A stretch of 64,000 bases of DNA from Lota lota (Eukaryota > Chordata > Actinopteri > Gadiformes > Lotidae). Below are positions 20,790 to 64,000 of the stretch, one piece after another. The notes beneath the pieces were generated by a model, which saw only the letters and a list, made by a program, of their open reading frames with translations, was not told the DNA's origin and made no database searches. Every line of letters starts with the position of its first letter. Position 1 is the first letter of the stretch. Made by a program: the position numbers and the translations under genes. The stretch is taken from assembly GCA_026745465.1 (NCBI GenBank), contig JACYXH010000017.1, forward strand, positions 2,396,954 to 2,460,953, written 5' to 3'.

Positions 20790-21097
20790 CTTGTACCAGC
20801 TACAAACAATTATTAGATATTAGGTACCTTCCTCTATAACGTAATTGGGTTACATCGACTTAATCTGATGAAATAGTATTCTGCGGCACTTTGAGCATAT
20901 CGTTTTTGCGTTGTCAAGGAAACATGTGGTCAGTTGTATTGGAGCGTTTCTTCAATGTTGTATTTGTAGGCATCGATTAGGGACTGCTTAAAGGCAGAGG
21001 TGTCCCGTTATTGAAAAAATGTAATTCAAATTAATTGGAATGTTTTTAGCCATTCAGGATCAAGTATTTAACAATGCAGTGTGTATATAAATATATA
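20790..21097. other. Spacer between fold-back element and Tc1 element
   Basis: No gene. It contains the lone GTGTCCCGTTATTG word near 21000 and ends in an AT-rich TATA run that supplied the TA target of the Tc1 insertion. Confidence 0.5.
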
Positions 21098-21099
21098 TA

Positions 21100-21138
21100 C
21101 ACTGCTCAAAAAAATAAAGGGAACACTTAAACAACACA
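21100..21138 (+). repeat. Left terminal inverted repeat of the Tc1 element
   Basis: Bases 2-28 are identical to the inverted right end; the remainder to about 39 matches with a few differences. It would be the transposase binding and cleavage site. Confidence 0.9.
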
Positions 21139-21396
21139 ATGTAACTCCAAGTCAATCACACTTCTGTGAAATCAAACTGTCCACTTAGGAAGCAACACTG
21201 ATTGACAATACATTTCACATGCTGTTGTGCAAATGGAATAGACAACAAGTGGAAATTATAGGCAATTAGCAAGACACCCCCAATAAAGGAGTGGTTCTGC
21301 AGGTGGTGACCACAGACCACTTCTCAGTTCCTATGCTTCCTGGCTGATGTTTTGGTCACTTTTGAATGCTGGCGGTGCTTTCACTCTAGTGGTAGC

Positions 21397-22440
21397 ATGA
21401 GACGGAGTCTACAACCCACACAAGTGGCTCAGGTAGTGCAGCTCATCCAGGATGGCACATCAATGCGAGCTGTGGCAAGAAGGTTTGCTGTGTCTGTCAG
21501 CGTAGTGTCCAGAGCATGGAGGCGCTACCAGGAGACAGGCCAGTACATCAGGAGACGTGGAGGAGGCCGTAGGAGGGCAACAACCCAGCAGCAGGACCGC
21601 TACCTCCGCCTTTGTGCAAGGAGGAGCAGGAGGAGCACTGCCAGAGCCCTGCAAAATGACCTCCAGCAGGCCACAAATGTGCATGTGTCTGCTCAAACGG
21701 TCAGAAACAGACTCCATGAGGGTGGTATGAGGGCCCGACGTCCACAGGTGGGGGTTGTGCTTACAGCCCAACACCGTGCAGGACGTTTGGCATTTGCCAG
21801 AGTACACCAAGATTGGCAAATTCGCCACTGGCGCCCTGTGCTCTTCACAGATGAAAGCAGGTTCACACTGAGCACATGTGACAGACGTGACAGAGTCTGG
21901 AGACGCCGTGGAGAACGTTCTGCTGCCTGCAACATCCTCCAGCATGACCGGTTTGGCGGTGGGTCAGTCATGGTGTGGGGTGGCATTTCTTTGGGGGGCC
22001 GCACAGCCCTCCATGTGCTCGCCAGAGTTAGCCTGACTGCCATTAGGTACCGAGATGAGATCCTCAGACCCCTTGTGAGACCATATGCTGGTGCGGTTGG
22101 CCCTGGGTTCCTCCTAATGCAAGACAATGCTAGACCTCATGTGGCTGGAGTGTGTCAGCAGTTCCTGCAAGAGGAAGGCATTGATGCTATGGACTGGCCC
22201 GCCCGTTCCCCAGACCTGAATCCAATTGAGCACATCTGGGACATCATGTCTCGCTCCATCCACCAACGCCACGTTGCACCACAGACTGTCCAGGAGTTGG
22301 CGGATGCTTTAGTCCAGGTCTGGGAGGAGATCCCTCAGGAGACCATCTGCCACCTCATCAGGGCATGCCCAGGCGTTGTAGGGAGGTCATACAGACACGT
22401 GGAGGTCACACACACTGAGCCTCATTTTGACTTGTTTTAA
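21397..22440 (+). CDS. Tc1-type transposase (DD34E), apparently intact
   Basis: Encodes a cut-and-paste DNA transposase that would bind the element's inverted repeats in the nucleus and insert into TA sites. The start at 21397 (MRRSLQPTQ) gives 347 residues, a normal length. The frame is also open from an in-frame ATG at 21352 (362 residues), so the start is a choice. Counting from 21352, residues 20-65 form a helix-turn-helix ([19 protein letters not shown] is its core). A basic linker with RRRGGGRRR follows at 68-75, then a second DNA-binding helix region to about 130. The catalytic domain holds D167 (FTDESRF), a Gly-rich box [12 protein letters not shown] (202-213), D258 (MQDNARPH) and E293 ([10 protein letters not shown]), with 34 residues between the last two. 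No stop, frameshift or missing catalytic residue is seen. The stop TAA lies 236 bp before the right end. A very similar protein is expected elsewhere in the same genome and in other fish. Confidence 0.95.
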
Positions 22441-22637: not shown

Positions 22638-22676
22638 TGTGTTATTTTAGTGTTCCCTTTATTTTTTTGAGCAGTT
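22638..22676 (-). repeat. Right terminal inverted repeat of the Tc1 element
   Basis: The inverse of the left end. The outermost base differs from the left copy. Confidence 0.9.
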
Positions 22677-22693
22677 TATTATCATTCTGTTAT

Positions 22694-38466: not shown

Positions 38467-39143
38467 TCTGTGAGGGGTGGAGGCCTGCTCTCTGCTCTCT
38501 AGCACGGGTAGAGGCCTGCTCTCTGCTCTCTGTGAGAGGTGGAGGCTTGCTCTCTGCTCTCTAGCACGGGTAAAGGCCTGCTCTCTGTGAGAGGTGGAGG
38601 CCTGCTCTCTGTGAGAGGTGGAGAACTGCTCTCTTTGACCGGTGGAGGCTTGCTCTGTGTAACGGGTGGAGGCTTGCTCTGTGTAATGGGTGGAGGCTTG
38701 CTCTGTGTAACGGGTGGAGGCTTGCTCTCTGCTCTCTGTGAGGGGTGGAGGCCTGCTCTCTGTGAGGGGTGGAGGCCTGCTCTCTGTGAGGGGTGGAGGC
38801 CTGCTCTCTGTGAGGGGTGGAGGCCTGCTCTCTGTGAGGGGTGGAGGCCTGCTCTCTGTGAGGGGTGGAGGCCTGCTCTCTGTGAGGGGTGGAGGCCTGC
38901 TCTCTGTGAGGGGTGGAGGCCTGCTCTCTGTGAGGGGTGGAGGCCTGCTCTCTGTGAGGGGTGGGGGCCTGCTCTCTGTGAGGGGTGGAGGCCTGCTCTC
39001 TGTGAGGGGTGGGGGCCTGCTCTCTGTGAGGGGTGGGGGCCTGCTCTCTGTGAGGGGTGGAGGCCTGCTCTCTGTGAGGGGTGGGGGCCTGCTCTCTGTG
39101 AGGGGTGGAGGCCTGCTCTCTGTGAGGGGTGGGGGCCTGCTGT
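38467..39143. repeat. 24-bp minisatellite
   Basis: The unit is CTCTCTGTGAGGGGTGGAGGCCTG. From about 38739 to 39143 there are about 17 nearly identical head-to-tail copies, varying mainly in GGAGG versus GGGGG. The left part (38467-38738) holds older copies with AGAGG, AACGGG, TTGACC and TAGCACGGG variants. Because 24 is a multiple of 3 and the unit has no stop, frames stay open on both strands (for example 241 codons on the minus strand with an eight-residue AGLHPSQR period). I find no start context, splice site or domain supporting translation. Confidence 0.92.
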
Positions 39144-46009: not shown

Positions 46010-47340
46010 TAGTATTCTTCATAATATGGTTTACACCAGTACAATCATGGAAAATGAAACCTATCTTGCTGTAGAATATTGTAGAACATTCAATCAATAA
46101 CAACTCACATGGCCTTTGTGAAAACAATATTTGGAGCACTTTTCTGTGTCTGTTGTGTATTGGGCTGTTCAGCTACAGTCCCACAAAAGGACCCTAATCA
46201 CTGTTTGGGCTTTTGCTCAATTCATAATATTCCTCTACTTTCACTGTGCTCGTTTATTTTCATTTGTAATTTTTCTTCATATTGTCTGTTCAAGGAATTG
46301 CATTTGTCTCTGTCCTTCACCTTCTCCTCGCATCAAGTTCAAGATCTCGGCCTCTGTGTGTCGGAGAATCATTGGGGGTTTCTACCAAGGGCTGCATATG
46401 CATTTATCATACCTTTGTACTATTCACAAATGTCAAAGACACATTTTCAATAGTGATCACAAACTTCCAGAGGCGATGGAAACGACTACACATACAGCTC
46501 GGGTTTGACAGCTTTCCAACGCTTGATTTTTGGCTCTGCGATTGTTTGGCTAGTGAAATATGTGTGTTTTGTTAGATAAAGTTATTTACTGCGAGAATGG
46601 ATCAATGTGTACATTCTTTTCAAAAAAGGATGATCGGAGGAATTGGAAGTCCTTTTTCGAGAACCTACTTTGTTGCCCATTTTTGGTGCCTTTCTATACC
46701 ATCTTCCTTCACTCTTCGTTCTACAAGAAGCAGTTAGAAAGTGCTCATGTCAAGGGCAGCTTTGGAGTTTTTATGGCCCATCACACGCTCAGTCTAGAGG
46801 AGAATATATATAAGTTATTATCATCTGAATTATCTAAGGTGTCAATCTTGTGTCCTTGTTCACAGCATAGACAAAAAAAAAAAGATAGCTTTTTATCCTA
46901 AAGTCTAGTGGGGCTTTTCTTTTTTGATGTCTGGCTTTGTCAGTTTCGCCATGGCGGCCGTAAAAGACCCACGGTCTCTGAAGCAGAGCGCCGCCACCAG
47001 CCCACAGAACTACAGGACTTCTCAAAAGTCCGCTGTCAACCAATTCTTTCCGAATGTGGTATTATGTAGACATTTAAATTAGCTATAATAGTTATGCTAA
47101 TTCGGCATTATGCTAATCACTTTCAGGAGTGTGGTGTGAATATGGCCTATTGTTTTACGCAAAGTGGTTTTCTTTGAAAACAATAAATTGGCTAAGAATT
47201 GCTCATAAGCCAACTCAACTAGTATATATACACATATATATTTTCTTATTTTTTGCTGGCTGGTTTGCCAGTAATAGCATAGAAACGAGGAAGAGATCAA
47301 GTTAAAAAATAAAGGAGTGTAGACCTTATTATCACAGTGC
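46010..47340. other. Upstream region of the aquaporin pseudogene; no other gene recognised
   Basis: An ATG in good context (GCCATGGCGG, ATG at 46951) opens a frame of only about 43 codons with no recognised family. The rest shows no supported feature. Confidence 0.45.
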
Positions 47341-47352
47341 CTGTAGAGAGGG

Positions 47353-47358
47353 TATAAA
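47353..47358 (+). promoter_or_regulatory. TATA box of the aqp3-like pseudogene
   Basis: TATAAA lies 115 bp before the first ATG, a normal distance for a short 5' leader. It is inferred as the core promoter from position alone; there is no transcript evidence in the sequence. Confidence 0.5.
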
Positions 47359-47467
47359 TGGGTGGAGACAGAGTCATACTTAAGTCTAACATTTCTTGAG
47401 CAAGAAAGACTCTCACCCCTCGAGTAGATCACAGCTCCTATCTAAAACTAATACTAGCCATTTCTCC

Positions 47468-47577
47468 ATGATGGAAAAACAGAAGGTAATTATTGAGAAG
47501 CTGGCCCAGATCTTCCACATCAGGCACCTGCTTCTTCAACAGGGCCTGGCAGAATGCCTTGGGACCCTGGTTCTGGT
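47468..47577 (+). pseudogene. aqp3: aqp3-like pseudogene exon 1
   Basis: Tandem ATG codons at 47468 and 47471; the second gives 36 codons (to GTG 47576-47578) that align without gaps to the AQP3 N-terminus, ending in LAECLGTLVLV. A donor is expected right after GTG 47576-47578, but the sequence continues TATATAAGG. The nearest GT is two bases early, inside the codon, or at 47576, one codon early. Loss of one G from an original GGTGGTATAT-like junction would explain this. Confidence 0.8.
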
Positions 47578-47622
47578 GTATATAAGGGCGGGCAGGGGTT
47601 TGTGTCAAATAGATCTCTATAG

Positions 47623-47672
47623 ATTTAGCAGAAGCTTTCATCCAAAGCAACTTACAAGTGAGGCTGGGAAGA
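47623..47672 (+). repeat. Common fish repeat motif (ATTTAGCAGA...CCAAAGC..CTTACAAGTGAGG)
   Basis: Starts about 45 bp after exon 1. The motif is recalled as one of the most frequent short dispersed repeats in fish genomes. I cannot assign its family. Confidence 0.4.
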
Positions 47673-48817
47673 ATCAGAAAGTACAATCAAAATGGGAGTA
47701 TGTGCTTTGTGCCAAAGCAAATAAAAAATGGACTGTCACTGATTAATGAACAAAAGTTGACAAGGCAAAACAACTGCAGATTGTATTGTGGTTTTATCAC
47801 ATATTTGAGTCCTCATTTGGGAAGGCCATGTAATTAAGCAGAAATGATCACCAGAATGTTATTGCATTGCATTATTAGTACCATGATTGTATGACAGTAA
47901 TATGTGTGGTATGAATGGGTCACTAACTGTGATGAGAACGATTTTTATTCACTAACGAGAAGATTAGAATATTAATTTATCTTATCCAAATATCGGCGAT
48001 GTCCTTTCCAAACCCTCATCGGTTGCCAGCACACAGCTTCTGACCTTTGGTGGTTTTGAATTTTCACTGCTTTGGATGCTACTGAGATAAGGACCTCTTC
48101 TGGTCTATATCCATTTCCCATTACCATTTATAAATTCATCATCAAATTATTTATTTATGGGTCAGCGTATTTACAAAACTTGTTTTGAATCCCCGAAATA
48201 CATAATCAATGTCAGACTTGTCCGGATCAATTTGAAACAGTTTGACTTTCAAGACATGTCGACGAGTAACTTTCAACATTTTCTCTCCTCTTGATACAGC
48301 ATATTCACGCATATCATACAATGAAGACAATAGGACTGTAAAGCATTACTTAATAACAACATTTATCAATTGAATTTGGGCCATGATATATGGTGCAAAT
48401 ATTCCACATTATTAAAATCTTAACGACAAATAAATTCAAGCTAAGGAAAGAGTAAATCGTCCGTGTAATAAGGCGTTCTTAGTTCCCCCAGACAACAACA
48501 CATCTCGAGAGGACACCAGCTCTGTGTGTTTCTGTGATGTCTATGCAGCAGGCGGCCGCCGTGCAAAACACAGAAAAAGAGAAGAGGGAAACCCCTCCTT
48601 GACATCAGGAAGACCCAAGCATGTTTTTCAAGTTAAAAGTCGTGTTTTCCAGGTTAAAAGTCCCCCCTCTCAAAAAGACTCAAATAATAAATCACACTCA
48701 AAACACCCTGGCTAAGAAGATAACCCAGACGCAGTAGGACACCATCACCAAGGTTGTGGCCCGGGTTTGAAAACGGTTTCAGCGGTCTTTCCCCTCAACA
48801 TGCGACCGTTCCTGCAG

Positions 48818-48945
48818 ACGTTTGGCTGCGGCTCGGCAGCCCAGGTGGCGCTAGGCGGAGGTTCCCATGACAATGTTCCTCACGGTCAACCTGGCCTTTG
48901 GATTCGCCGCAACGCTGGGAATCCTCGTCAGTGGACAGGTGTCAG
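48818..48945 (+). pseudogene. aqp3: aqp3-like pseudogene exon 2 (+1 frameshift)
   Basis: Acceptor CCGTTCCTGCAG at 48806-48817; donor GTCAG|GTAAG at 48945/48946. The length of 128 is one more than the 127 I recall for this exon in aquaglyceroporins. The frame reads [18 protein letters not shown] up to 48874, then shifts by one base to [17 protein letters not shown] and GQVSG. The extra base is 48875 or a neighbour. Confidence 0.85.
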
Positions 48946-48989
48946 GTAAGGGGGTGTGGCAATGGTATATGTGAACTTATAGGGGATTT

Positions 48990-49015
48990 CTTTTTTTTTG
49001 GGGGGGGGGGGGGGT
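48990..49015. repeat. T9 then G14 homopolymer junction in intron 2
   Basis: A run of T (about 48992-49000) abuts a run of G (about 49001-49014). Confidence 0.9.
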
Positions 49016-49963
49016 TTGAAAGTGGCTGGTGTACATTAATTCTTCGTTTGAGCGAATTCGATTATATCACAAAGCATACAATTGTTCAGTTGCTTGTGTC
49101 TGTATGATTTTGTAGAAAGAATCATATTTTCATCAGCGCATGTTTTGGTTTCATGTTCTAACAGCACACAGTAGCTCCTCATTATTATTGACTTTGTATT
49201 TCAATATAAAGTAAGCAGTGGCAAGTGCAGTATTTACCACTTTCAGGAGTAGCTCACCACTCCTGTTTGCCATTCAGAATGACAGCCAACCATCATCAGC
49301 ACTACAAACACTCTGCATGTCAGAAGAATACAAAGAGGATGGAGGAAGGAGCGCTTTCTTCCATGAACATAAAACAACGCGGTGCATCTCGATGTTGGAA
49401 GTGAAGACATAAAAAACAAAACACTCGAGTAATTTCATTAACTACGAGTGTTCTCCGTCAAAACAGACCCACCACATCTGCACTTCCCTCATCGAACCTT
49501 TTTGTTTACCGCCACACACTGCAGCTCAAAGGAAAGCGTAATTATAAACCTCCCACCCAGACAGGGCGAGGGTATGAATCCGAGCCCCAGGAGACAAGTG
49601 CCCGCGTGAATGAGCCATCGAAGCAGTTCACTTCCCTTCCAAAGTTTTTTTCTTTTTATTAAGAAAAACATTGACTTTGTGAAGTACTTTCTTTTTTTCT
49701 CCGCCTTTTCATCCTTCCAATTTAGTTTGTGTCACAGAGACCTCCCTCCCGTTTCAACAGGGTTTTACACGCAACCCACAATTACATGGAGATAGGCTCG
49801 GCGCTATGTTCGCTTTGAAAGTCAGGGGTGAGAATATTCTCTAAGAAGATAAGATGGCCTCTCTCTCATTGCACTATAAATCACTGATCATAGCTAAGAG
49901 GATATCTCCTTTACGAGTCCTATTTAGAAAGTCTCACGTTTCTGTCCTTCTTGCCGTCCTTAG

Positions 49964-50079
49964 GTGGTCATCTGAACCCGGCCGTGACCTTTGCCCTCTG
50001 CTTCCTGGGGAGGGAGCCATTCTCTTCCAAACGTTGGGCGCGTTCCCGGGCGCCGGGATCATATTTGGCATGGATTCTG
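49964..50079 (+). pseudogene. aqp3: aqp3-like pseudogene exon 3 (about 22-base deletion)
   Basis: Acceptor TTGCCGTCCTTAG at 49951-49963; donor TCTG|GTATGC at 50079/50080. The first NPA motif is intact (codons 49975-49983, in GHLNPAVTFALCF). After REP the expected ten residues of the loop are reduced to about 8 bases, and the frame changes before QTLGAF. The length of 116 against the 138 I recall fits a 22-base loss. A usual Tyr-Tyr before the junction is replaced by Asp-Ser. Confidence 0.85.
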
Positions 50080-50814
50080 GTATGCGTCCTTGAATTGTAA
50101 AATGGCTCCGCTCTCTGGGTTCCATCCCTGATGTCCTGCCTGCTTCCTACAGCAAGACGCCTCACCCCTACCTAACTGAGGGGCCAATCACACAGAGCCG
50201 CGTCGCAACAGGCGCGGACGATTCAAAAAGGCCTCGACAGAGTGCTTGTTCGAACCGCTCTGAGCACAATTCTGCCGTTGTAAACTAGTTTTACAGGGAA
50301 AATTGATTCAACAATACGCCGTGCCTTTACGTTTGATTTGAACTTTGAATAAATGATTATCCCTACACTGCCCAAATCAGCTTCTCGACGTTGTTTGAAA
50401 TTTGATCAAGTCCTTTTCTACCTTTCTTTGTGAAGCGGCGCTGTTCCGCGCCCAGCACTCAAAGTTGAACTTATTTCAACTGCTAAGCGTTAGAACTTAG
50501 AGGTGCATCGCCATAAGGGGAGCCCAGCACAGGGGCTCCGTACCACAAAAACAACGTAAAGCGGGCGCTGCGTCTTTAAAAACCCTGTTCTGTGTGATCG
50601 CCACCATATCAAACCCATTTGTTCCTCTTAATGTAATCTAATAATACGAGCACCGCCACGGCACCAACAAACATACAAGATCAATGGTTATTCAATATTT
50701 ACAGACGGGGCCTGCTGTCAGGCAGTGATGGGAGTCTTGGAAGCGGGTGCTTACAGTTAATAAAGCTGAAGGTATTATCAACACTGAACACAGTAATGTG
50801 CATGTTCCCACCAG

Positions 50815-50934
50815 ATGCACTGTGGGATTATGGCCAGGGGACGCTGTTTGTGGATGGGACGAACGCCACAGCAGGGATCTTGGCTACGTTTCCCTCCAAA
50901 ACATCTCACTCTGCTCAACGGATTCTTTGACCAG
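50815..50934 (+). pseudogene. aqp3: aqp3-like pseudogene exon 4 (+1 frameshift, donor lost)
   Basis: Acceptor GTTCCCACCAG ends at 50814. The frame reads DALWDYGQGTLFVDGTNATA, then GILATFPSK. An AAAA run (50898-50901) in place of AAA shifts it to HLTLLNGFFDQ. The length of 120 is one more than the 119 I recall. The donor is CAG|CTAACA where CAG|GTAACA is expected, so splicing to exon 5 would fail even if exon 5 existed. Confidence 0.85.
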
Positions 50935-50939
50935 CTAAC

Positions 50940-53900
50940 AAAAGTGTCCGACTTTTATTTTTTTGTCACATCTCTTAGTCCACAAAAAGGAAACGATTCA
51001 ATCGGTGTCACACCAATTGCTCCAGATCATATCGCAAGAACAACATACACATTTAAGAATTGCCAACTGTGACCCCGGTGCTAGATAGCTACAGGGCACA
51101 GATGGAGCTCCAAAACAACTCCATCAGTCCCAAGGCCCTCTCCCCCACTCCACTAATTGTTTTGTGAATCCTCCCAGTGGAATTGCTATCCAGCTATTAA
51201 AGGGCCCCTAAAATCAACACTTTGGGTGAAATTGATATGGAAAGCATGTGATACGTAACAATAGTTCTACTCACGTACGGTGACAGACAGGCAAAGAGGA
51301 CTGCCTTCATTGAATCTCTTTTTTATTGAGTTAGTCCTCTGAAGTGTGGTGGATGTGATTTTTGTTTTGGGAAATATAGATAGGGGGAGGCGCTGAGGGG
51401 TGGTTTAGCTGTCAAGTTGTTTCACAAGATCGTTTTTGGAACATACTCCCTTTGCCCTGTGGCGCTTGGAAATGGATTTATGCAGCTTTAACTTTAGATG
51501 TGAAAAAAAGGAAGCAAATTAAACTTAACATAATTGCATGCGTTAATGCCGAGCTAAAATTGTGGGGATGCCAGAAACATATTGAAAGAGAATGAATATC
51601 GTGAAATATCTGTGAATTAGGTTTGTCCGTCTGCAGCGTTACGGTATCAGGAAGTAAATACAAGCTCACTCCACAGGTCCCCATGTTATGTCTTAAGCAC
51701 CGTTGGCCTTTTCTGCACTTTTTGAAGGGAATGAGTTTTGCTTTTTTTTATACAAAGTTATACTCTTTGTTCAAGAAGAATATCTGCTGTGTTTTTCACC
51801 AAATAAATTGACCAATCTTTATCTTACTAATAAATAGGTCATTTTGGAGATGTTCATTTAGATCAGAAGCCACTGGCTTGTGAGTGGTTGGGAGCTGTTG
51901 GCGATTCCGTCTCCGTTATATTACTGGGAACAATATTCCCCGTTGGAATAAAAACGACAAACTAGAAGACATGGCCATTTAATTACGATTTTAGTCTTTA
52001 CATTAATTGCATTACAGCAATGGCAAAACCATTACAGCCTTCCTAAATACCTTATTAAAGACCTTACATAGGAAGGCCTTTAAATCAGTTTTAGTTAGTT
52101 TCTAGTTAGTGTTCATCCTTTTTGCCTCACTTGCATGTTCGGTTTCAGCCCTGTACAGTACTTTGAGATTTCTTAAATGAAAAGCGCTTTCAAATCAAAT
52201 GAATTATTATTAACTGACAACAAGTAAATGAATACAAAACTCAAAAAGAAAGGTGTGATGAGATTTAGAATATGCAATTAAACATAGAAAAATGGACAGC
52301 TGTTGAAAGCAACTGCTTTTTAATTTAAACATGTCGATCTTCTGATCTTGTTTTGTTTTACCTTGGTGATAGGGTGGACACTGCATGCCATCTCTTGTCC
52401 CCTCTCCTCCTCTCCTCTACTTGTCTCCACTCCTTTCCTTGACTCCTCTCCTAAGCAATTAAAATCCATATAGTTACATTGCCACAATAGCATAAAACAT
52501 TAAGACCATCCAGATGTTCACGTTTCAAAATGAACATCATAAGTTTCGTTGTTCAAAAACCTCCAGCCAATCAGAATGACACTGTTGCTCTCTTTGCTCT
52601 TGGCAAATCCAGTTGAAAGTAAAGAAAAAAAAACTTCTGCTTTGAGGAAAGCCTTCCGTGCAGATATCTGTTAATCTTTTAACATTGTCATCCCATTTAA
52701 AATTAATATTTTGGGTTTTTTAACCCAATTACCCCGCCCCCTTGCTACGCCACTTGCTACATATGTAGACATCTTCAAATTCCATCGTGCTGTTCAGATA
52801 TATAAATGCATTCAAATAAAAAATATGAAGTCTTAAATTCTTGCAAAACTACTTGAATTCCATGGGACTCCTTATTAGCGGCTTCTGGAACCTTCCATCA
52901 CGGAGATTTGAAGAACAAGTAGACTGAAGAATTCAGCCATCACTTTTTTTCCCTTCCGCAGACATAAAACTAGATAAAGGGCATGTGCATAAAAACGTCC
53001 GTTGAGGCTGTGGGATGCTTTACTCTTAATCTTTTACCTTATCTTGGACAGCGGTGATTTGTGAGACCGCAACGGTAGCCCCCATGTTTTACACCGGGAT
53101 ATATGAGCTATAGCGATGGCAGAGTGTGCTTCTCAGTGACCAGAAGACTTATTTATACACAACGTGTAGACGCAAACAATTATGATTGATGTAATTAATG
53201 AGATCTAACAAGGCACGCCCACTTGAGGCAACCTCACGCTGGAATGCACTTTATAAAGAAATGAAAAGGAAATGTGTGGAGAAGTACACCAGGTTTTATG
53301 ACTTTTCTGAGGTCACAGCCCTTTCACTTTTTCTGTGTGCATAGGTCAGCATTTGTACGTAGACTATTTCAATAAGCCATCTGGGCTTTAACATCCTCTT
53401 CTTTTAATTCCTGTTCTAGTCAACCACAACACCCACTATATTATCCTGCAACCGCTGCCAAACTTAACCCTGAGTGCTGAACCCAACCGTAACATTTTCC
53501 AACCTAATTTGTTTGGCTTTCGCACGATAGACGGAACCTTTCAACGGGGGAAGGCGGGAGCCAGTGCCTTGCCTTTGACCCTTCGTTCTAACGCAGTAAT
53601 GGTGGTCAATGCGGGGGGGGGATGGGGGGGTCCACATGGCCTTTATACAAAACTTTCAAGCCTAATTTGTTTGGGGTTTTCTTTATGTCCACATTTTCCT
53701 TATACTTTGGCCTCGTAAGAGGAACGGATAATAAATCCAAGACAATATCAGCCAAGGTTACCCCAAAGCTACCACTTTGAAAGCACTACTGAAACGTACA
53801 GGTAATTTAGGTTAAGGTATTCAGGTTAGGTATTTAGGTTAGGTTTTTGCTTACACATTGAGTTTGCTAAATACATCATTGAGATGGGGGTGTGGAGGGT

Positions 53901-54985
53901 CATACTACAATATTGCTCCGTAACAACTAGCATTTGCTTTACCCAGGAGGATTGACTGGCTGGCGAGCAGTGAGGTCAATCCATGTTGAGGTCAGTCCAT
54001 ATTGAGATGCTCTAATTCACATCCAGATTCAGGGAAGGGGGCTTTTTTTTGTTCATTCATCTAATCGATGGACAGACAGATAAATAATTGATTGTACTTT
54101 GAGAATGCGTGCAGTATGCCGACGAGAGCCTAATTTAGCTGGTCAGAAGCCCACCGTGGGTTTGAATTCCCCAGGGCTGTCGCTCATGTCAAGATGTCAT
54201 GTGGTCCCAGATCAGATGTCAAACTCATCTTCCTCCCATCTTCGTCTTCCTAGAGTGGTTGACCACATTTGTACGGTCGGCTAGAAAACTCCAGAAGCAT
54301 GCTGAAAAATTTATATTGTATTGTATGTGGAGTATTCTAATATTTCCATCTGTTAGAATGTAAATCTACGTGCTTTATCTAATTCTAAATTATTGTCAAG
54401 TCCTATCTCTTCCTATAAACTGCAGATTAAAGGGATATAGTTACAACTATATAAAACATCTAAATGTATAGATGAAAAGATCCACATGCAAGAATTCCCT
54501 GTACATTTCCCTAAACCAAATACCCTTTTTACAACTCTGATAAATTTTTCTTAATCATAAATTGTCTTTCATTAGGATAATCCAGAGATTTCTGAATACC
54601 CTGAAGGCCCTGACAGTTTGCAACTGGAAAAGAAAATCAATATCCTTACTTCACTGGAGAAATAACTCAGTAGTTTTTGTGTAGTCTGTGTGGTTGGCCA
54701 ATCTGTCTGAACTCTATAAAACTGACTCAGTGCAGGCTGAGGGTTTTATGCATACATTAGGAAAAAATGGACATCCACTAACAAGTAAGTGTAAGTGAAA
54801 CAACTTGTGAGGAACCCAAACGCAATGGCCATCCTATAGGGCTTATAAATCAGAATGCATCATGGGATTCGTTTTGGCAATACTGCGCCATATTGAGAGG
54901 ATTCAAGGGAGTTAAGTACTGTAAAATCCTAACTCAACGTAAATATACCGTAACCTAGGCTAATGGCAAGTTTGTTCTGTCATGT
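50940..54985. other. No gene recognised; no aqp3 exons 5-6
   Basis: I looked for the helix 5, second NPA (NPARDFGPR) and helix 6 coding sequence and saw none. About 51197-51245 (TTAAAGGGCCCCTAAAATC) may be a MITE end. About 52140-52215 (CTGTACAGTACTTTGAGA, AAAAGCGCTTTCAAATCAAAT) resembles an L2-like LINE 3' end. The rest is unassigned. Confidence 0.55.
52140..52215 (+). repeat. LINE 3' tail-like sequence
   Basis: GTACAGTACTTTGAGATTTC and AAGCGCTTTCAAATCAAATG follow the usual L2-like 3' end pattern. No coding part is seen. Confidence 0.4.
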
Positions 54986-54990
54986 CTCGC

Positions 54991-55170
54991 ATGAAAAACG
55001 CTGTGGCTGTTTCAAACACAATGTCTCTCTATAATGACAAATTATTTCACAAAACATTACTAAACCATGACAGAAAACCTTACTACAAACTTGATTACTA
55101 GGATGCCTATGCTCTTTTGCTTCCAAAATGGAAGTAGTCATTGCAATGTGATGTCCTGTTGCACAAGTCC
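54991..55170. repeat. Diverged dispersed repeat, copy 1 (pairs with 60511-60690)
   Basis: ATGAAAAACGCTGTGGCTGT, TAATGACA, ACAAAACATTAC, TTCCAAAATGGA and GCAATG.GAT..TGT...CACAAG occur in the same order and spacing as at 60511-60690. Divergence is substantial. Family unknown. Confidence 0.65.
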
Positions 55171-55174
55171 TGTA

Positions 55175-55915
55175 GGAGTAGCAAATGCACAAAATGATTC
55201 CAGGATAGTCAAAAGATAATCAAACGCATGCTGCACTACCTCATGTTTCCAAAAGAATCATGTTTGAAATAGATTAGTCAAAAAGACACCTATGCTCATT
55301 TTAATTTACATTTATCCAGAAAAGAGTATGATTTCCATTTAGGAAAGACTGGCTATTCTTTTTAACAGAGCATGCCCTCACCTTGAGTGCAGAGCAGTCA
55401 AGGTGAGAGTTCAAATCATGCAGTATGTGTTTGTAGGGAGGGTCAGCGTTAAGAACATTTCAGCGTTGCTTACTGCACCACTTAACCAGCAATATGTCCT
55501 TTTGGTGGGAACATTATGCAAATTGAGTTAATAGTTCTCCTATGCTTTCAAATTGTGCGAGGAGGCTAGGAGACGTGAAGGTGAAACTGAAGAATGCCTG
55601 GGGAACAGGGAAAATACATAATGCATGACAAAAGACCTGCAACCAAGGGTCGCTAGTCAATTATTGTTCATGTTGTAGGAATGGGCTTCATTTCCAGATG
55701 TGTTTATTACTTGGTTGACACTAAAGATTTTCCATCACTAGTCCAAATGAACTCCTAGTGGTTGAGTGTATTGAAGTGTTGATGGATGGGTTTTATACAC
55801 CTGGTTTTTATTGATATTGGAGGAATGTGTCAGGAGACGGTGTGCATTTAAAGTTAAAAAGGACAAAAACCGTCTTTGTAGACTACAGTGTTTGGCTCTC
55901 TAGTCTAAATTGCAA
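55175..55915. other. No gene recognised
   Basis: No supported exon or repeat. Confidence 0.5.
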
Positions 55916-55920
55916 AAGTT

Positions 55921-56115
55921 GAAGGGGCCCTAGTTCAAAATATATCCCTTTGTGACATCGCAAGTGTGAGTGTCCACGCAGATGTATAAGGGGAGATCTA
56001 CATCTACATCAGCCTACCAGTTGACGCAGTCAACCAATCAACTCATTCCAGCAGCTGGGCACGCCCACATTGTGGAATAGATAGAAGGGATACATTTTCG
56101 AAATGGTTGGTAATG
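55921..56115. mobile_element. Member of the palindromic GGGGCCCTA MITE family
   Basis: Starts GAAGGGGCCCTAGTTC, continues TTTGTGACATCGCAAGTGTG AGTGTCC, and ends with inverted-type words (GGGCACGCCCACATTGTGG, then TTGGTAATGGTTCTTC). This matches the order in the 14175 copy. Confidence 0.45.
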
Positions 56116-56119
56116 GTTC

Positions 56120-57560
56120 TTCAAAATGTATAATTGGGACACTTTTAGAAACCATCAAAGTAACAAATGCACAAATGCACTATTAGTATTGTCCAAAACA
56201 CAAATAACTCCATCTCTGCATAAATACAATCAATGCAATTCCCAATGGGAAATAAAAAAAACAAGTATCTATCAGGCAGGTCGGGCCGATGTGACATTCT
56301 GCTCAAACTTTAGAGAAGTGCTATTTTGACATTTGGAAGTCCTTGTTGGCATGACCTTTGCTGTGTAGTATTACCAAACAGGCGAAGAGTCAATCCCAAA
56401 TATTTTATTGTAAAATTATGCTATTTACCTATCCACTGGCTTCCATAATGGGCACAAAGTGAAGCATTTATGTTTGTGAATCGTTTTATTTACTCAGACA
56501 TGCCAATCAATCAATATCCTTAGGGACATCCCATGCCTCTGATCTACACATGGACCGTGGCCATACCAAATGTCACCATCAGAAGCCTACATCTGTAACC
56601 TACGAGTGTAGCTACAGGCTTACTTCAGTGTGTTAGTCATGGAAACCGTGTGTTACCCAACCACCTTGCAATTTACAAGTGTTTATACAACACAAAGACC
56701 ACACACACACACACACACAAATTGTGACCTTATGAAATCAAAATGGCATGACATTTTTCCCCAAAGGAGAGCTTTAGATATACCGTTGCAATAATTATCC
56801 TCCATAGATCATCATCAATCTATTAGTTGACGATAGATTTAACACTTATTTTACAACAATTTGTCATTCATTAAATTATATATGAATGGTTTATCAAGGA
56901 TGTATGAATGTATTGATTAAACAGTATCTGATTCAGATTGGGTGCAATCGTCAATAAATTATGTAAATAAATTATTCTGTTATCAAAATATTTTTTTATA
57001 AAAAGCTTTATAAATAATTTATGATTTACATTTATTATCCATTAATATATGGTGCAAACGTATCTTCATTGTCTACGCTTTGTGTTCTATTATTGCTATA
57101 AATGCATTTCAAAAGCATTACAAAAACACTCCGTCCAGTCCAAATAGAACAAATGAACATAACACATTATTAATGCCAGTGGCATAGCGCCACTGTGTGG
57201 TCAACTAATAAATTACATCCCACCATTAGGCCTATTGTTGACCATTCAAGCGTGAATGGGAAAGGATTACAAAGATTTGTATTGCCTTTTGTGTTGTCTC
57301 TGGGTGCACTTAACTCACGTTTAGCCTAATTGCTTGCAGCTATTCACGAGGACCAGTTGGATTGAAAACCGACAGGGAATCAGGCCAACAACAATTCTTA
57401 GAATCTCTGCCAAGTTTTTCGAACTGATGGCATGCAAAGTATATTTACCTTACATAATTATCTGTTATGATAACGTCTTCAATGCACAAGAAAGAAAATC
57501 TGGCGAGTCTAATTTGTACCTGCGGTGTAACATATAACTGTTAAGTTACCTACCCGGTTC
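56120..57560. other. No gene recognised
   Basis: AT-rich. A short CA array lies at 56700-56720. No exon is supported. Confidence 0.5.
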
Positions 57561-57639
57561 TCCGCATGTTACGTTAATTGGCGACCTGACTTCCCCCACA
57601 GGTGTGACTAATCCACCCTCGGTCGACTTGGGCTGAGAG

Positions 57640-57740
57640 AGGGTCATGAATTGTAGGGTTATTCCGGTTTACCGCAACGCAGTTTCCGGTCTCTTACTTC
57701 CTATGAGCTGTGTACGCCAGTCGCCATCTAACAGTCCCCG
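57640..57740 (+). promoter_or_regulatory. Possible promoter-like patch with ETS-type sites
   Basis: TTCCGG occurs twice (about 57663 and 57686), with ACTTCCTATG close by, in a GC- and CpG-richer patch amid AT-rich DNA. ETS-type sites cluster in TATA-less housekeeping promoters. No first exon could be recognised downstream, so this is weak. Confidence 0.2.
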
Positions 57741-57965
57741 GAGCGAAAAGAACATGACTAGAATATCGTTAGCGAGTTTTTATTTTAGTTTTTAGTTTTC
57801 TTTGACAAAGCAGTACCCAAAACGTGTAACGGAAACGCACATCCATTTATCAGAAGTCCCTCCCTCCCTCCCGCCAGTAACACAGATTTGGAGCATCCCG
57901 TTCCAGGCGTTTGCTCAAGGAGTGAGCAAAGAAAAATAGTAACACAGAAAAAAAGTGAACTTCAT

Positions 57966-58066
57966 AAAACACATAGCAACATTAAGCTCTTGGTAGTGGT
58001 TAAGTGTTTCCAGGACTATTGTTATTATTTTTGTTTGAAATAATGTGTTATGGTTTTGCACGCCCT
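57966..58066. repeat. 101-bp direct duplication, copy 1
   Basis: Starts AAAACACATAGCAACATTAA and ends TTATGGTTTTGCACGCCCT. It matches 58261-58361 without gaps and with few substitutions. The copies are 295 bp apart (start to start). Confidence 0.9.
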
Positions 58067-58260
58067 AAACCACTATTATATTATACAATATATCAACTAC
58101 TGGGGTTATCTAGTGGTCAAGCCCATCTACTACCTTTAGAGTAGACCTAATAAGATAAACGCAATCACTTGCTCTACGATGTGAGTCTGGACCACCCTGT
58201 GTCATTCATTTAACACAAATACAAATAGTCCAACGCAGGAACCCAAATAGATCAGCAACT

Positions 58261-58361
58261 AAAACATATAGCAACATTAAGCAATTGGTAGTGGTTAAGT
58301 GTTTCTAGGACCATTGTTATTATTTTTGTTTGAAATAATGTGTTATGGTTTTGTACGCCCT
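58261..58361. repeat. 101-bp direct duplication, copy 2
   Basis: Partner of 57966-58066. The sequence between the copies is not duplicated. Confidence 0.9.
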
Positions 58362-58789
58362 ACATGGAACTGTGACCATTTTCCCAGCAACCTTTGTTTA
58401 GCTTTCTATTAACGGTCTAACGTTACTCATCAACCCGGCATTTCAATAAAAACAATAGACCCAATATTAAAAACAATATATATTTAAGAAAATATTTTGT
58501 TTTTTCTTTGTTCTTTTATCTCACTCGTTCTCCGCATTTGTCTGTTTGCCACCACACCCACAGACGTGCATCCAGGAAGCAGCTCAAGTCAGAGTACATG
58601 CATAGCTCACCAGTTGTTTGTGTATTAACTCAATTATAGCCCCACACCTTGAGATTCAGCGCTGATAGAAGTATGCAGAATGTTTGCTTTGCTTCCTTGC
58701 CAGAATCAACAGCGGGTGTCGCTACTGTTTTGTTATTATATGTCAAATAAAAGTTGAATCATACAAAAAGTTTATTCTCATTTGGTCCC

Positions 58790-58897
58790 TTAACTAAAGG
58801 TGAAATGTGTAGAGTTTAGTAGCATCTAGCAGAACGGACTTGGCAGAAATGGAATATAATATTCATAAACGTGTTTTAATTACTGTTTGATACAAAT
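58790..58897 (+). mobile_element. piggyBac-type MITE, left part (interrupted)
   Basis: TTAA at 58790-58793, then AAAGGTGAAATGTGTAGAG, TTTAGTAGCATCTAGCAG and AACGGACTTGGCAGAAATGG. These are the hallmark words of one end of a very common fish TTAA MITE (recalled). The element stops abruptly at 58897, where gypsy-type sequence begins, and resumes at 60231. Confidence 0.7.
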
Positions 58898-59007
58898 GTT
58901 TATTCGGAACATGACTACAAGCATCATGGTCACCTCCAGACTACCCGCCGACCCTATCTGAAGATGTCATCATACCGTGCCTTAATGTATCATAACCTGA
59001 TCATAAC
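58898..59007 (-). repeat. 110-bp terminal direct repeat (3' LTR-like, minus orientation)
   Basis: On the minus strand it starts GTTATGATCAGG and ends CCGAATAAAC. Gapless match to 60121-60230 with about 8 differences. It is short for an LTR, so it may be an LTR remnant. Confidence 0.75.
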
Positions 59008-59136
59008 TAATTATGCTGCATCGCAAAGATGAATTTCAGGTGGACAATGACATCAGTCAACCTGGAGGGAGGGAGTGAGCTGTGCTCACTCGGTTCCCTG
59101 TTGCTGTGCTGTGCCTGCCTTCCTCACACAGCTGCG

Positions 59137-59770
59137 TCACGCTTGCACACACACACTGTGCCTCTTCAGCTTCTCTCTCAGCTCATCCAGGTAAGCAGTG
59201 CTTGCAGGTAAGCTGTCTGTAATGGTGTCTGCATAGATGTTTGTATCCTCCAGTAAACCCTTTTCCTCTGGTGTTGCACCCCTCTGTAATGGAGCCTGTG
59301 ACAGCTGTCCACTTCCCAGGCACATGAGCAACGCATCAGCCGCATACGGAACCGCTGAATCCGTGGGGAGAGGGCATACAAGGGCTTGTGGTCAGTCTCC
59401 AGCTGGAAGTGTTTACCGATGAGAAAGTTGCGGAATCTCTCACAGGCCCAGGTCATTCCCAAGGCCTCCTTTTCCACCTGCGTGTTTCTCTGCTCTCTCT
59501 CTGTGAGAGAGACCGTGACATATGGGCTACTGGCTTCACTGATCCTCCCACTTCTGGAGAAGAACCCCTCCCAGGCTGCAGGAAGAGGCATCCGCTGACA
59601 CTTTGACCTCCCTGTTAGGGTCATACATAGCTAACACAGGTGGGTTGTCAGCACGTCCTTCCGATTCGGGAAAGCTCTGGCCTGCTCGACACCCCACACC
59701 CAGCAGTTCTTCTTTGAGGGGAGGTCTCGCAGAGGTTTAACTTTCTCAGCCAACTGCGGGATGAACCACC
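59137..59770 (-). pseudogene. Broken pol fragment: reverse-transcriptase connection and RNase H of a Ty3/gypsy element
   Basis: On the minus strand, in order: LRDLPSKKNCWVWG (connection) in one frame, then VSADASS (first RNase H aspartate) in a second frame. Then QVEKEALGMTWACERFRNFL (active-site glutamate) and LETDHKPL (aspartate) lie in the 148-codon frame 59178-59624. IQRFRMRLMR follows after an apparent deletion of about a dozen residues, and the stretch leading to the usual spacer is degenerate. A shifted frame (59137-59331) continues with LLEDTNIYADTI. Several frame changes and stops make it non-functional. RNase H would degrade the RNA of RNA-DNA hybrids during reverse transcription. 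Family assignment rests on the motif pattern. Confidence 0.8.
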
Positions 59771-59854
59771 TGGTTTAAATATGCAGAGAAAACTCCTCAG
59801 CTCACTCACATGGTTGGCTCACCCATCTTCATTATAGCCTCTGTGTCCATCTAA

Positions 59855-60031
59855 ATGCACACAGAGTCGCACACTGTCCGTGCAAGTTCATAGTTGCAGT
59901 GTTCGGCTAGCACATACAGGGCAGTGACAAAATAGTCCACAGTCTCATTTTCCCCCTGTGGGAGCATATTGAAGTTCGCACGCTCATATATGACATTTCT
60001 CTTCACTATGAAAAACTCTTGGAAGGAGTTG
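59855..60031 (-). pseudogene. gag-like remnant of the same Ty3/gypsy element
   Basis: An open stretch of about 58 codons on the minus strand contains RNVIYERANFNMLPQGENET and FVTALYVLAEHCNY. This is the pattern of gag proteins of Ty3/gypsy elements (a ...F..R.Q...E.v..f...L..la..C.y motif). It ends in a stop close to where pol sequence starts, so the usual zinc knuckle, protease and polymerase are deleted. Confidence 0.65.
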
Positions 60032-60120
60032 TGAACGCCCCTTTGTTTCCCCAGTCAAGGTCAGCCCACGCAAAACATTATCCGCCTCATCTAATGAGTC
60101 CAACTGTATATTTACGTGGA

Positions 60121-60230
60121 GTTTATTCAGAACCTGACTACAAGCATGACGGTCACCTCCAGACTGCCCCCTGACCCTATCTGATGATGTCATCATACCG
60201 TGCCTTAATGTATCATAACCTGATCATAAC
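60121..60230 (-). repeat. 110-bp terminal direct repeat (5' LTR-like, minus orientation)
   Basis: Partner of 58898-59007. On the minus strand it starts GTTATGATCAGG (preceded by T) and ends CTGAATAAAC. Confidence 0.75.
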
Positions 60231-60356
60231 ATTACGCCACAGGAACGTCATAAATTGACACATGGCTAATCGATGCTGGGGGTGGGGGGTATTTAGTCAG
60301 TTGAAATCAGCAACCTCACCACTGGATGCCACTAAATCCTAAATACTGCACCATTA
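60231..60356 (-). mobile_element. piggyBac-type MITE, right part (interrupted)
   Basis: Read on the minus strand from the outer edge: GGTGCAGTATTTAGGATTTAG, then TGGCATCCAGTGGTGAGG and TTGCTGATTTCAACTGAC, the other end of the TTAA MITE family. The outer TTAA is decayed to ATTA. With 58790-58897 it frames the gypsy insertion. Confidence 0.7.
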
Positions 60357-60510
60357 GCACAACTCCTGTCATTATATACTACTGTCAGGTGCATATTTCC
60401 ATAGTCCCGCTGCTGAATTCTAGAGTCGCACACTGTCCGTGCGGAAACTATATACAATACTGTTGTTCCAACTATGTAGTGTAACAGGGCTCTTGCATCA
60501 TGGGATATAC

Positions 60511-60690
60511 ATGAGAAACGCTGTGGCAGTTTTGAACCCAGCAATGTTTCCCTAAAATGACACATATTTTAACAATAAATTACAAAACAATGAACACATT
60601 TGTTTTACTACTAACATAAAAAAAAACATTCTAATGCCCCAATGGTTCCAAAATGGAGTCATAGCAATGAGATATTGTGATGTACAAGCC
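60511..60690. repeat. Diverged dispersed repeat, copy 2 (pairs with 54991-55170)
   Basis: Begins ATGAGAAACGCTGTGGCAGT; the order of matching words is as in copy 1. It lies about 155 bp outside the nested MITE. Confidence 0.65.
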
Positions 60691-60835
60691 CATAAATCTC
60701 TAAAATACAATAGCCAATATCGATATTTATATATTAAGCCCATACGTTGTATAACTCTCTCACACACACATATGCGTGTGTTTTGTTCACAACTAAACGT
60801 GGAGAAAAAGTTTAAGTGTATAATACTTCAAGAAA

Positions 60836-60868
60836 ATTATATATATTTATATATATATATATGTAATA
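60836..60868. repeat. (TA)n-rich tract
   Basis: Alternating TA with a few T interruptions. Confidence 0.9.
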
Positions 60869-60899
60869 TACTATTTGAAGATGCATGTTCTGTGTAAGA

Positions 60900-62085
60900 T
60901 TAGGGTTGGATTTGTTTATTGAAATAAGAGGCCTAATATATATTAACTGCTTCCTTATCACTAAGAGAGCATGCTTGTTTTCAGCTATTATAAATGGCAA
61001 GAGCTCAAGTTGTCAAGAGCAAAGGTGTAGTGAAACATTGCGTGACACGCTGTGTTTCTTGGTCATCTTGGTCATGAAGACTTCTTTCTTCGTAGATATT
61101 CCCTCAAAATGTCAATGTTATGATATTGCAATCGACACAGAGTATGACGCATTGTCACAAACATTTCTATAGAAATCCTTCAGCCACGCTGAGTATATTT
61201 AACATTCAGACCTTTTGTCAGCAAGTGTTGTGCTGACAAACGCTTTTAAAAACACCCCTGTGAGACAAATAATGGAATTTGTTACTATTGATATCGTCTG
61301 CTGAAGTACATTAAGCATACAACTCAACACTGACTCGTAAAAATCAAAAAGAAGTTGGGTAGAAGCAGGCTAGTTATATATTGACCTGTCTCGATCTGGT
61401 CTTGATGCATTGACATTATGTGTCAATGCATCACCCCAGTAACACCCTAGACATTATGTCAATATTTGAATAACTATTACACTATTTAAAATGTTGTTAA
61501 ATCTTATCCTTAACACATCTTTCCTGTTTGTGGCAACCGGTAATTCCTCGTACAAAAATAGCTATGTATTCCACGATTCAAACAAAAGAGCATTGTTGTT
61601 TCACCCACAGGTGCCAGTTACATTTCCCCATGCCACATCAATCTGAATTCCCAGAACCTTACATAGTGTTATCAACTGAATCATGCCGCTTACACTGGTC
61701 AAATTACTGCTGCCCTTGTTGTCAAGAGACATTGACGCGAAGAGGTGTTTATAATTTAAAATAAAATTGGATGAGGCCTGAATGAAAGTGGTTAACCCCA
61801 TTTTGGACAGAAACAATTACTGGAAATTGGTCAAGGGGGCTGAGATTAGATACTCAAAGGGTCTAGAATTGCCCCTGATATCAACACGGACAAAATTCCT
61901 TCAAAATAATGTGAGCATCAGATTAAGAAGGGCTTGGCTAGAGAAGTGTACCCGTCGCCTGTGTGTTTCCCCAGCGGAGCAGAACCTCCATCAGCACAAC
62001 GTTCCTCCTCACGCAGCACAAAACACAAAGACGTCACAGTGGATTTCAGGTTGGTGATAAGATGTCCTTGTGCTCTTTTTGCAAA
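60900..62085. other. No gene recognised
   Basis: Open frames of 60-95 codons without a recognisable domain. Nothing is supported. Confidence 0.5.
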
Positions 62086-62089
62086 CCTT

Positions 62090-62178
62090 GTGCCACTATC
62101 TTTGGCACAGAGTTCTTGATTTGTATCTCAATGTACCTTCCTGGTTAAGTAAAGGTAATACAAATAAAATAATATACA
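62090..62178 (+). repeat. LINE 3' tail-like sequence ending in AATAAAATAAT
   Basis: TTGTATCTCAATGTACCTTC, CTGGTTAAGTAAAGG and TACAAATAAAATAATA follow the pattern of a very common 3' end of fish non-LTR elements (recalled). No coding part is visible upstream. Confidence 0.5.
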
Positions 62179-62179
62179 G

Positions 62180-64000
62180 TAGATACTGGCCAAAATATAA
62201 AGTTATAGAGAAGGAAATATACACATAGCCCGACCTGTGTTTGTCAGCCTACTTTATAATTGTTTTCCTGTCAAATGGTGTGACACTTGGACTTCTTTTA
62301 AATAGATGACATGCTAAACTTGGAATTTAGTTTTGCGACATTACATTCTGTGTTTTACGATCCACACCACCAGGTCCAGACTGCTGCAATGGCTGGAATC
62401 TCACTGTAGCTCTATTGTCGCAATGTGGTGGCTTTGCTATATGCCAAAAGGCCTCCACGATCCAGTCAATCATCATGGACCACTAAAAACAAAACACAAG
62501 ACACATTGTTAAAGGTGTCATGCATACAGCCGCACAATGAAATGTTAAGAGACGAACGGACTGATTTGTAATCAGCGTTGACGGTCATGTATTTTCACTT
62601 ATTCGCCATTTCACTGACTACCTGCGCAAATGTTCACCATCATAATCATAACACAATAATCCCAAGAACCACCTGGCAATTGAATAATTGTAGGTCTATA
62701 TGTCACACACGCAACAAGTCAGGGCAGTCCCTCAATCAAATCTATTCTAATGCCTTCAGTATTTCTTAATAAAGTCTCTCATGAAAAGGTGAACCCGGTT
62801 CTAATCTAAAAGCTGTAATTAAAGCATCCTAACTTCCACAGCCCCTCCCTGCTAATTTAGGGCCATACCATTGCCATTGCATTAAACCATTAATAATCCT
62901 GCTCGTATTCACAGCTATCTCACGACAGAGACAATTTGTCACAGTTTAAAACCATTAATCGGCAATATTATTAGTACTGAATATAAATATACATAAATAC
63001 AAATATAATTTGTATTTATTCAAATTATAAAACACACTACATACGTCAGATAAAAGAAAAGAACACTCATATTTGTGTTTTATTCATTTCGTATTATTAT
63101 TCCAAACAATGAATACAGTTTTCTACATGAGGATCCCTATATTACGTTTGTTATTTAGTATTATGTGATACCAAGAAGCCGTTGCGTGTATTTCCAAACA
63201 GGTTAAACTGGTCCGGCATTGTTAAGGAAGAGGTTGGAGTATACACCCTCATCTCAGTTGCCGTTCTGTCATTCAAAACACCTCTGTTGTTTTCACAAAC
63301 TTTATTCTTTGCAGAACACTGGAGGTAACACTAACATACTGCTACCAGTAGTCTTTGTATTGTTACCCTGAATTGGCTGATTTGTAAGGGTCTATGAAAT
63401 TGCAACCATCAGTAGAAACAGGTAAGAAACATTTAGATGGAGATGATTGAGAAGTAATTGATCAATATTTAAATTTAGAGACATTTTGAGAGATAGTTTG
63501 TGAGTTTTTTTAACGCGTGGAATTAAGAATGCAGCTGGTGTTAAATAGGAAGACAAATCAATACATAAATACATCTCTAGTTTGTTTTGTAATTAGTTGG
63601 GTTTTCTCTAGTAAAACCCTCAGGCTATTATTTTCCATGTGGTTATTTTAGCAGAAAGAAAGATTTTGGGCATGACTTCAGGTGAAGGGTCCAAAGTCCT
63701 TGGCAATGGATTTTGTTGGCATAAGAACATGATTGTTCAGTCAATCAAAGAACATTCATGGTGACATTCATTCTAATTCTTTCAGAACAAACCTCAGGAA
63801 CAATTTGTTGGACTAGCAACTGAGTTTTTACATAAGTCTTAATATAAATAATAAATAGAATGCAAATCAGTCAAAAGTAATTTGGAAATGTGCAACATTG
63901 ACTGATATAACAAAATTGCATACCAACTTTGTAAACATCGGCGTGGTGTGAGTTCAGGTTGTGTTCAGCATTCAGCATTGAAGTTTTGGACTGTATCAAA
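62180..64000. other. No gene or repeat recognised; AT-rich
   Basis: AT-rich to the window edge. No supported exon or element. Confidence 0.5.

Follow-up and report, generated by a model that had tools for sequence, protein, structure and literature searches.

An unprocessed aqp3 pseudogene, probably an aqp3b copy that was inactivated recently, in the genome of a possibly cod-like fish

Does the aqp3-like locus at 47468..50934 still encode a channel, or is it the remnant of one, and in that case from which gene copy does it descend and when did it die? We addressed this question in a window of 64,000 nt, the whole stretch of DNA analysed, which corresponds to C17:2396954-2460953 of the assembly and to which all coordinates without a contig name refer. 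The initial annotation had described four aqp3 exons in order, and we recovered all four on the plus strand, with AG acceptors preceding exons 2, 3 and 4. Exon 1 (47471..47578) measures 108 nt, or 36 codons, from the second of two ATG codons, the one that aligns with the start of the intact paralogue, and 111 nt from the first (47468); the GT of its donor is absent, GTG being followed by TATATA. Exon 2 (48818..48945, 128 nt) and exon 3 (49964..50079, 116 nt) retain intact donors, GTAAGG and GTATGC, respectively, and exon 4 (50815..50934, 120 nt) again lacks the donor GT (CAG followed by CTAACA). The introns between them are 1239, 1018 and 735 nt long. Apart from the two absent donors, the exon borders agree with those of the intact copy, and borders and phases are those of aqp3. 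A TATAAA site (47353..47358, plus strand) was found 118 nt upstream of the start codon in the region searched (47201-47470), and an alignment of the upstream regions of the two copies gave no clear promoter conservation.

The family assignment is well supported. A tblastn search of the window with human AQP3 detected the four exons with E-values of 2.2e-10 to 2.5e-8 (those for exons 2 to 4 each combine two pieces). The best pieces of exons 1 to 4 scored 46.6, 45.4, 40.4 and 39.7 bits, all above 25.8 bits, the most that any of 60 dinucleotide shuffles of the window reached. When the translation, with X at the lesions, was searched against the PDB, AQP3 came out on top at 1.8e-64, followed at a distance by AQP7 (1.8e-29). 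Judged from its predicted protein, the locus is by descent a member of the AQP3 subfamily, its closest family among the aquaglyceroporins. Human AQP3 (PDB 9qsx) aligns to exons 1-4 with 94 of the 137 compared residues identical; unlike the copy studied here, it is a complete channel of 292 residues.

Exons 2, 3 and 4 of the family are 127, 138 and 119 nt long. Here they measure 128, 116 and 120 nt, and the +1, -22 and +1 indels initially reported are indeed present. In the intact paralogue the corresponding lengths are 127, 138 and 116 nt, exon 4 being one codon under the family length, so that the +1 of exon 4 rests on the frame change seen in tblastn. The frame shifts between 48868 and 48876 in exon 2, after the GSH segment, and near 50900 in exon 4, after FPSK; the 22-nt deletion of exon 3 lies near 50019-50022, before LFQTL. 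The missing GT donors 3' of exons 1 and 4, where the paralogue has GTAAGT and GTATAC, constitute two further lesions. Each indel had been thought to break the frame. All three are present in the sequence, but the +1 of exon 2 and the -22 of exon 3 cancel modulo 3. If the exons are joined in their present state, the reading frame that begins in exon 1 therefore stays open into exon 4, where its first stop lies near the end of the exon. We do not take this open frame as a sign of function, because the first NPA sits in the out-of-frame part between the indels of exons 2 and 3 and because such a cancelling has a one-in-three chance. A working aquaglyceroporin, with two NPA half-helices in one open frame and six helices, is not predicted from this locus. 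The earlier view of a decayed gene copy, as opposed to a retrocopy, is borne out by the kept introns, the multiple disabling lesions and the live-looking relative elsewhere in the genome; on these sequence features the locus is classified as an unprocessed pseudogene.

The intact relative emerged from a tblastn search of the whole genome (575,287,041 bases, 867 contigs) with human AQP3, a search for a surviving paralogue that had been proposed at the outset. Its 34 matches comprise two in the pseudogene, where just exons 1 and 2 were hit, 27 spread over seven aquaglyceroporin loci (six stretches), and five, on C91, C94, C175, C671 and C812, that we take for other aquaporins. By identity and tree, the sole aqp3 among the seven loci is on contig C479, at ~14.50 Mb. 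This gene is intact, with exons of 108, 127, 138, 116 and 218 nt plus exon 6, GT/AG borders at all introns and 302 codons before the stop. No second intact aqp3 was found in the 575-Mb search; since this search picked up neither exon 3 nor exon 4 of the pseudogene, other broken aqp3 fragments could have escaped it.

Nrap-domain exons, which we take for nol6, occur at C479:14483432-14484126, some 16 kb upstream of this intact gene. According to excerpts of PMC7408487, aqp3a sits downstream of nol6 in cichlids, and with nol6 beside it the C479 copy is accordingly taken for aqp3a. An arrestin-domain gene is a candidate neighbour, from one match (8e-4, 28% identity) to an ARRDC3 query, and Pfam gave no support for this reading in the two adjoining frames tried. 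Elsewhere in the genome, C473:3561500-3571400 holds a tandem pair of aquaglyceroporin genes that share one strand, and the first of them groups with a gene on C813. By resemblance, this pair may correspond to aqp10ba and aqp10bb; in the portions of PMC7408487 consulted, aqp10ba is located upstream of aqp10bb and is intact in seven gadiform families, as well as in greeneye, electric eel and some salmonids.

How old is the split between the two aqp3 copies? Their comparable in-frame pieces amount to 137 codons, over which 100 of 137 residues are identical, dN is 0.158 and dS is 1.62 (NG86; dS near saturation), giving a dN/dS of ~0.10 across the whole divergence between them. Of 58 fourfold sites, 64% differ, and third positions agree at 46%. 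In a tree of 10 proteins, in which human AQP3 is the only AQP3 besides these two, the pseudogene and the intact copy pair at 97% ultrafast bootstrap and human AQP3 joins them at 93%. The pseudogene has the shorter protein branch (0.175, against 0.231 for the intact copy), and the intact copy is identical to human AQP3 at 96/137 residues, close to the figure for the pseudogene. Unique replacements number 14/96 in the pseudogene and 12/94 in the intact copy. Taking the rate of the intact copy as the constrained rate, the excess of replacements in the pseudogene is 1.7, with an upper bound of ~11 that corresponds to ~0.05 neutral substitutions per site since death. Together, these values indicate a very old split under strong constraint, with no clear excess of amino-acid change in the pseudogene. 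At positions where human and intact aqp3 agree, it carries some harsh changes, and these fit a short time without selection: exon 2 begins with T in place of M, and in exon 3 P replaces L and DS replaces YY.

A genome search with the DNA of the locus gave no near copy among the 40 scored of 175 candidates, the hits being the locus itself and two dispersed repeats; the pseudogene is thus not a recent duplicate. The repeats are a small element in intron 1 (47623..47700, plus strand), with 33 of the 40 scored matches, and one in intron 3 (50176..50600, plus strand), with six of the 40 at 68-81% identity.

We consider it probable that the locus is an unprocessed pseudogene of aqp3b (an ohnolog), constrained for most of its life and inactivated recently. 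In this scenario strong purifying selection would have maintained aqp3b, the second aqp3 copy from the teleost whole-genome duplication, through most of its existence. Small indels in three exons (2, 3 and 4), together with the loss of two splice donors and of exons 5-6, would then have inactivated it recently in this lineage. The gene would no longer make a channel, and the intact aqp3a on C479 would be the only aqp3 left. The whole-genome origin of the duplication, the order in which the lesions arose, the timing of death and a possible physiological cause are inferred. The old split, the separate contig and the presence of nol6 by the intact copy fit the teleost duplication. The initial annotation had already suggested the ohnolog of a live aqp3, and this is still the best reading given the age of the pair, their sister position and the nol6 neighbourhood of the intact copy, but the dead locus gave no sign of conserved synteny in the short stretches compared.

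The comparison of flanking genes, also suggested at the start, yielded no neighbours common to the dead and intact loci: outside the aqp3 exons, no open frame around the intact copy (20 kb downstream and 9 kb around it, ~29 kb) matched the flanks of the dead one. On the side of the pseudogene, what looks like an ARID5-type gene starts ~13.5 kb downstream on the plus strand. A large exon next to the ARID domain is taken for part of this gene, and it has no paralogue in the genome among the 62 of 62 candidates scored. A gene that looks like DAB2 also lies downstream, where one frame out of 140 gave a Pfam hit (DAB2_SBM, 3.9e-13); its position was assigned by eye. Beyond the window, 150 of 358 filtered open frames, each 60 codons or longer, were scanned with Pfam. 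A region separating the ARID gene from DAB2 may be BDP1-like, and its search against the PDB gave no match.

This lack of conserved synteny in the stretches compared is also compatible with an aqp3a duplicate that arose long ago, in tandem or segmentally, moved later and then died, in which case the locus would not be the ohnolog aqp3b. Excerpts of PMC7408487 report tandem aqp3a copies in pike and cichlids, and in salmonids they describe aqp3a pseudogenes of tandem origin, which gives such a history precedent. The locus is nevertheless on a different contig from aqp3a, and the dS of 1.6 points to a very old split; we regard a displaced aqp3a copy as unlikely, if still the most credible alternative to a dead aqp3b.

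The missing 3' part raises a second alternative. Exons 5-6 would be expected on the plus strand within 50935..64000, and they were found neither there nor in the next 50 kb. At an E-value of 0.05, nothing resembling them appeared in the rest of the window or on the contig 50 kb downstream and 40 kb upstream. The stretch covered (C17:2356954-2510953) is 154 kb long and includes 2500 bases of N, leaving 151.5 kb of known bases, and exons 1-4, which the same window search detected, serve as a control. Exons 5-6 downstream on the same scaffold had been named in the initial annotation as part of what would speak against a pseudogene; the 63 kb searched in that direction yielded neither. One exon 6-like match, on the minus strand in intron 2 (49273-49311, 22.7 bits), was rejected because one of 60 shuffles reached its score for one query, several queries had been tried and the preceding residues mismatch. 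That recognisable sequence stops at the border of exon 4, which has no donor, would fit a duplication that took in only the 5' half of aqp3, up to that exon, and gave a copy that never worked. A dN/dS of ~0.10 with no clear replacement excess instead argues that the sequence was selected as protein long after the split, and no near-identical source copy was found among the 40 candidates scored out of 175; we find a truncated duplicate improbable.

Errors of assembly or sequencing in a live gene are less probable still. Two of the three indels are single-base changes, one of which adjoins an AAAA run, and these two +1 indels could be read errors. Such errors would hardly account for the 22-base deletion, the two absent donors and the missing exons: the known bases of the contig stretch contain no exon 5 or 6, and all seven exon-5 matches found genome-wide with human AQP3 belong to loci with their own earlier exons. 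Least credible of all would be a shortened product still made from the frame that the two cancelling indels leave open between the start codon and exon 4, a TATA-like site upstream notwithstanding. The exon 1 border has no GT, although there is one 3 bases before it. The open frame does not read the first NPA, the channel lacks its second half, and the -22 could cancel the +1 by chance as noted above.

The remainder of the window appears to contain few genes. Of its 558 open frames of 48 codons or more, 435 were scanned with Pfam, the others being filtered out as low complexity. The scan returned MIP (0.0015), Tc1 transposase and reverse-transcriptase RNase H domains; the remaining hits were weak and single (0.0014 to 0.018). 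As Pfam is weak for single exons, this apparent scarcity of genes is suggestive but not proof. Rfam and tRNA scans of the window gave no matches, nor did one of the six frames of the right flank (51000-63998) searched against the PDB. A stop-to-stop frame of 376 codons (21310-22437, plus strand) is taken for a Tc1-like transposase (HTH_Tnp_Tc3_2 3.4e-21, DDE_3 3.5e-16) and is flanked by inverted repeats of ~50 nt that are 90% alike (21090-21138 and 22638-22686). Frames on the minus strand at 59181-59736 are taken for reverse-transcriptase RNase H matches (RT_RNaseH 1.3e-11), bracketed by 110-nt direct repeats at 93% (58898-59007 and 60121-60230). A minisatellite at 38523-39141 has a 24-nt unit in ~25 copies.

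Tandem repeats occupy 11.0% of this one window, dinucleotide repeats 4.0%, with 4.8-20.6% per 8-kb bin (TRF, low score threshold). Parts of PMC5241972 give 10.9% and 5.7% for Atlantic cod, obtained with another program (Phobos), and less than 2.5% for most species compared. A genome-wide search for MHC class II beta (PF00969) gave 0 matches and 0 candidates, a result that does not prove absence, 14 control genomes being silent as well; MHC II is described as lost in Gadiformes in excerpts of PMC5894186. Taken with the tandem aqp10-type pair, and allowing for the occurrence of aqp10ba outside gadiforms, these observations suggest a gadiform host, which we hold to be more likely than not.

Many fish have lost duplicates of channel genes, and the remains are often barely readable. 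Here the dead copy is fresh enough to bound its time of death, and its partner gene and the genome are at hand. In the sections of PMC7408487 consulted, gadiforms keep aqp3a and aqp3b, the Gadidae have an additional aqp3b, and aqp3b is lost in many percomorph orders. We recognised no report of aqp3b loss in a gadiform in the literature searched, supplements not included. A genome with no intact aqp3b would be an exception among gadiforms, unless the assembly lacks the gene. It is conceivable, though we hold it doubtful, that a cod-like, possibly freshwater fish was deprived of its only aqp3b no more than ~0.05 substitutions per neutral site ago, and that it belongs to an order reported to keep or even duplicate this gene. 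If true, the loss may mark a recent change in water and glycerol handling, with aqp3a left to work alone, and the date of death of such an exception to the published pattern could be set against a change of habitat.

Pseudogenes of this kind are well known, and the points of interest are the recency of this one and the possible cod exception. Three known systems bear on it, all from excerpts of PMC7408487. The aqp3a/aqp3b ohnologs of teleosts likewise consist of two aqp3 copies, the intact one here lying near nol6; what sets the present case apart is a dead copy in which four exons can still be read and which seems to have died recently. Atlantic cod likewise has aqp3-type pseudogenes, six fragmentary ones on LG 4 together with aqp3b1 and aqp3b2, whereas we found one lone pseudogene, no intact aqp3b and no cluster. 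In salmonids, aqp3b2 and aqp3a-type pseudogenes also stand beside intact paralogues and are fragmented, one of them frameshifted; these follow the salmonid or tandem duplications, whereas the split that gave rise to the pseudogene described here looks older, judging from dS.
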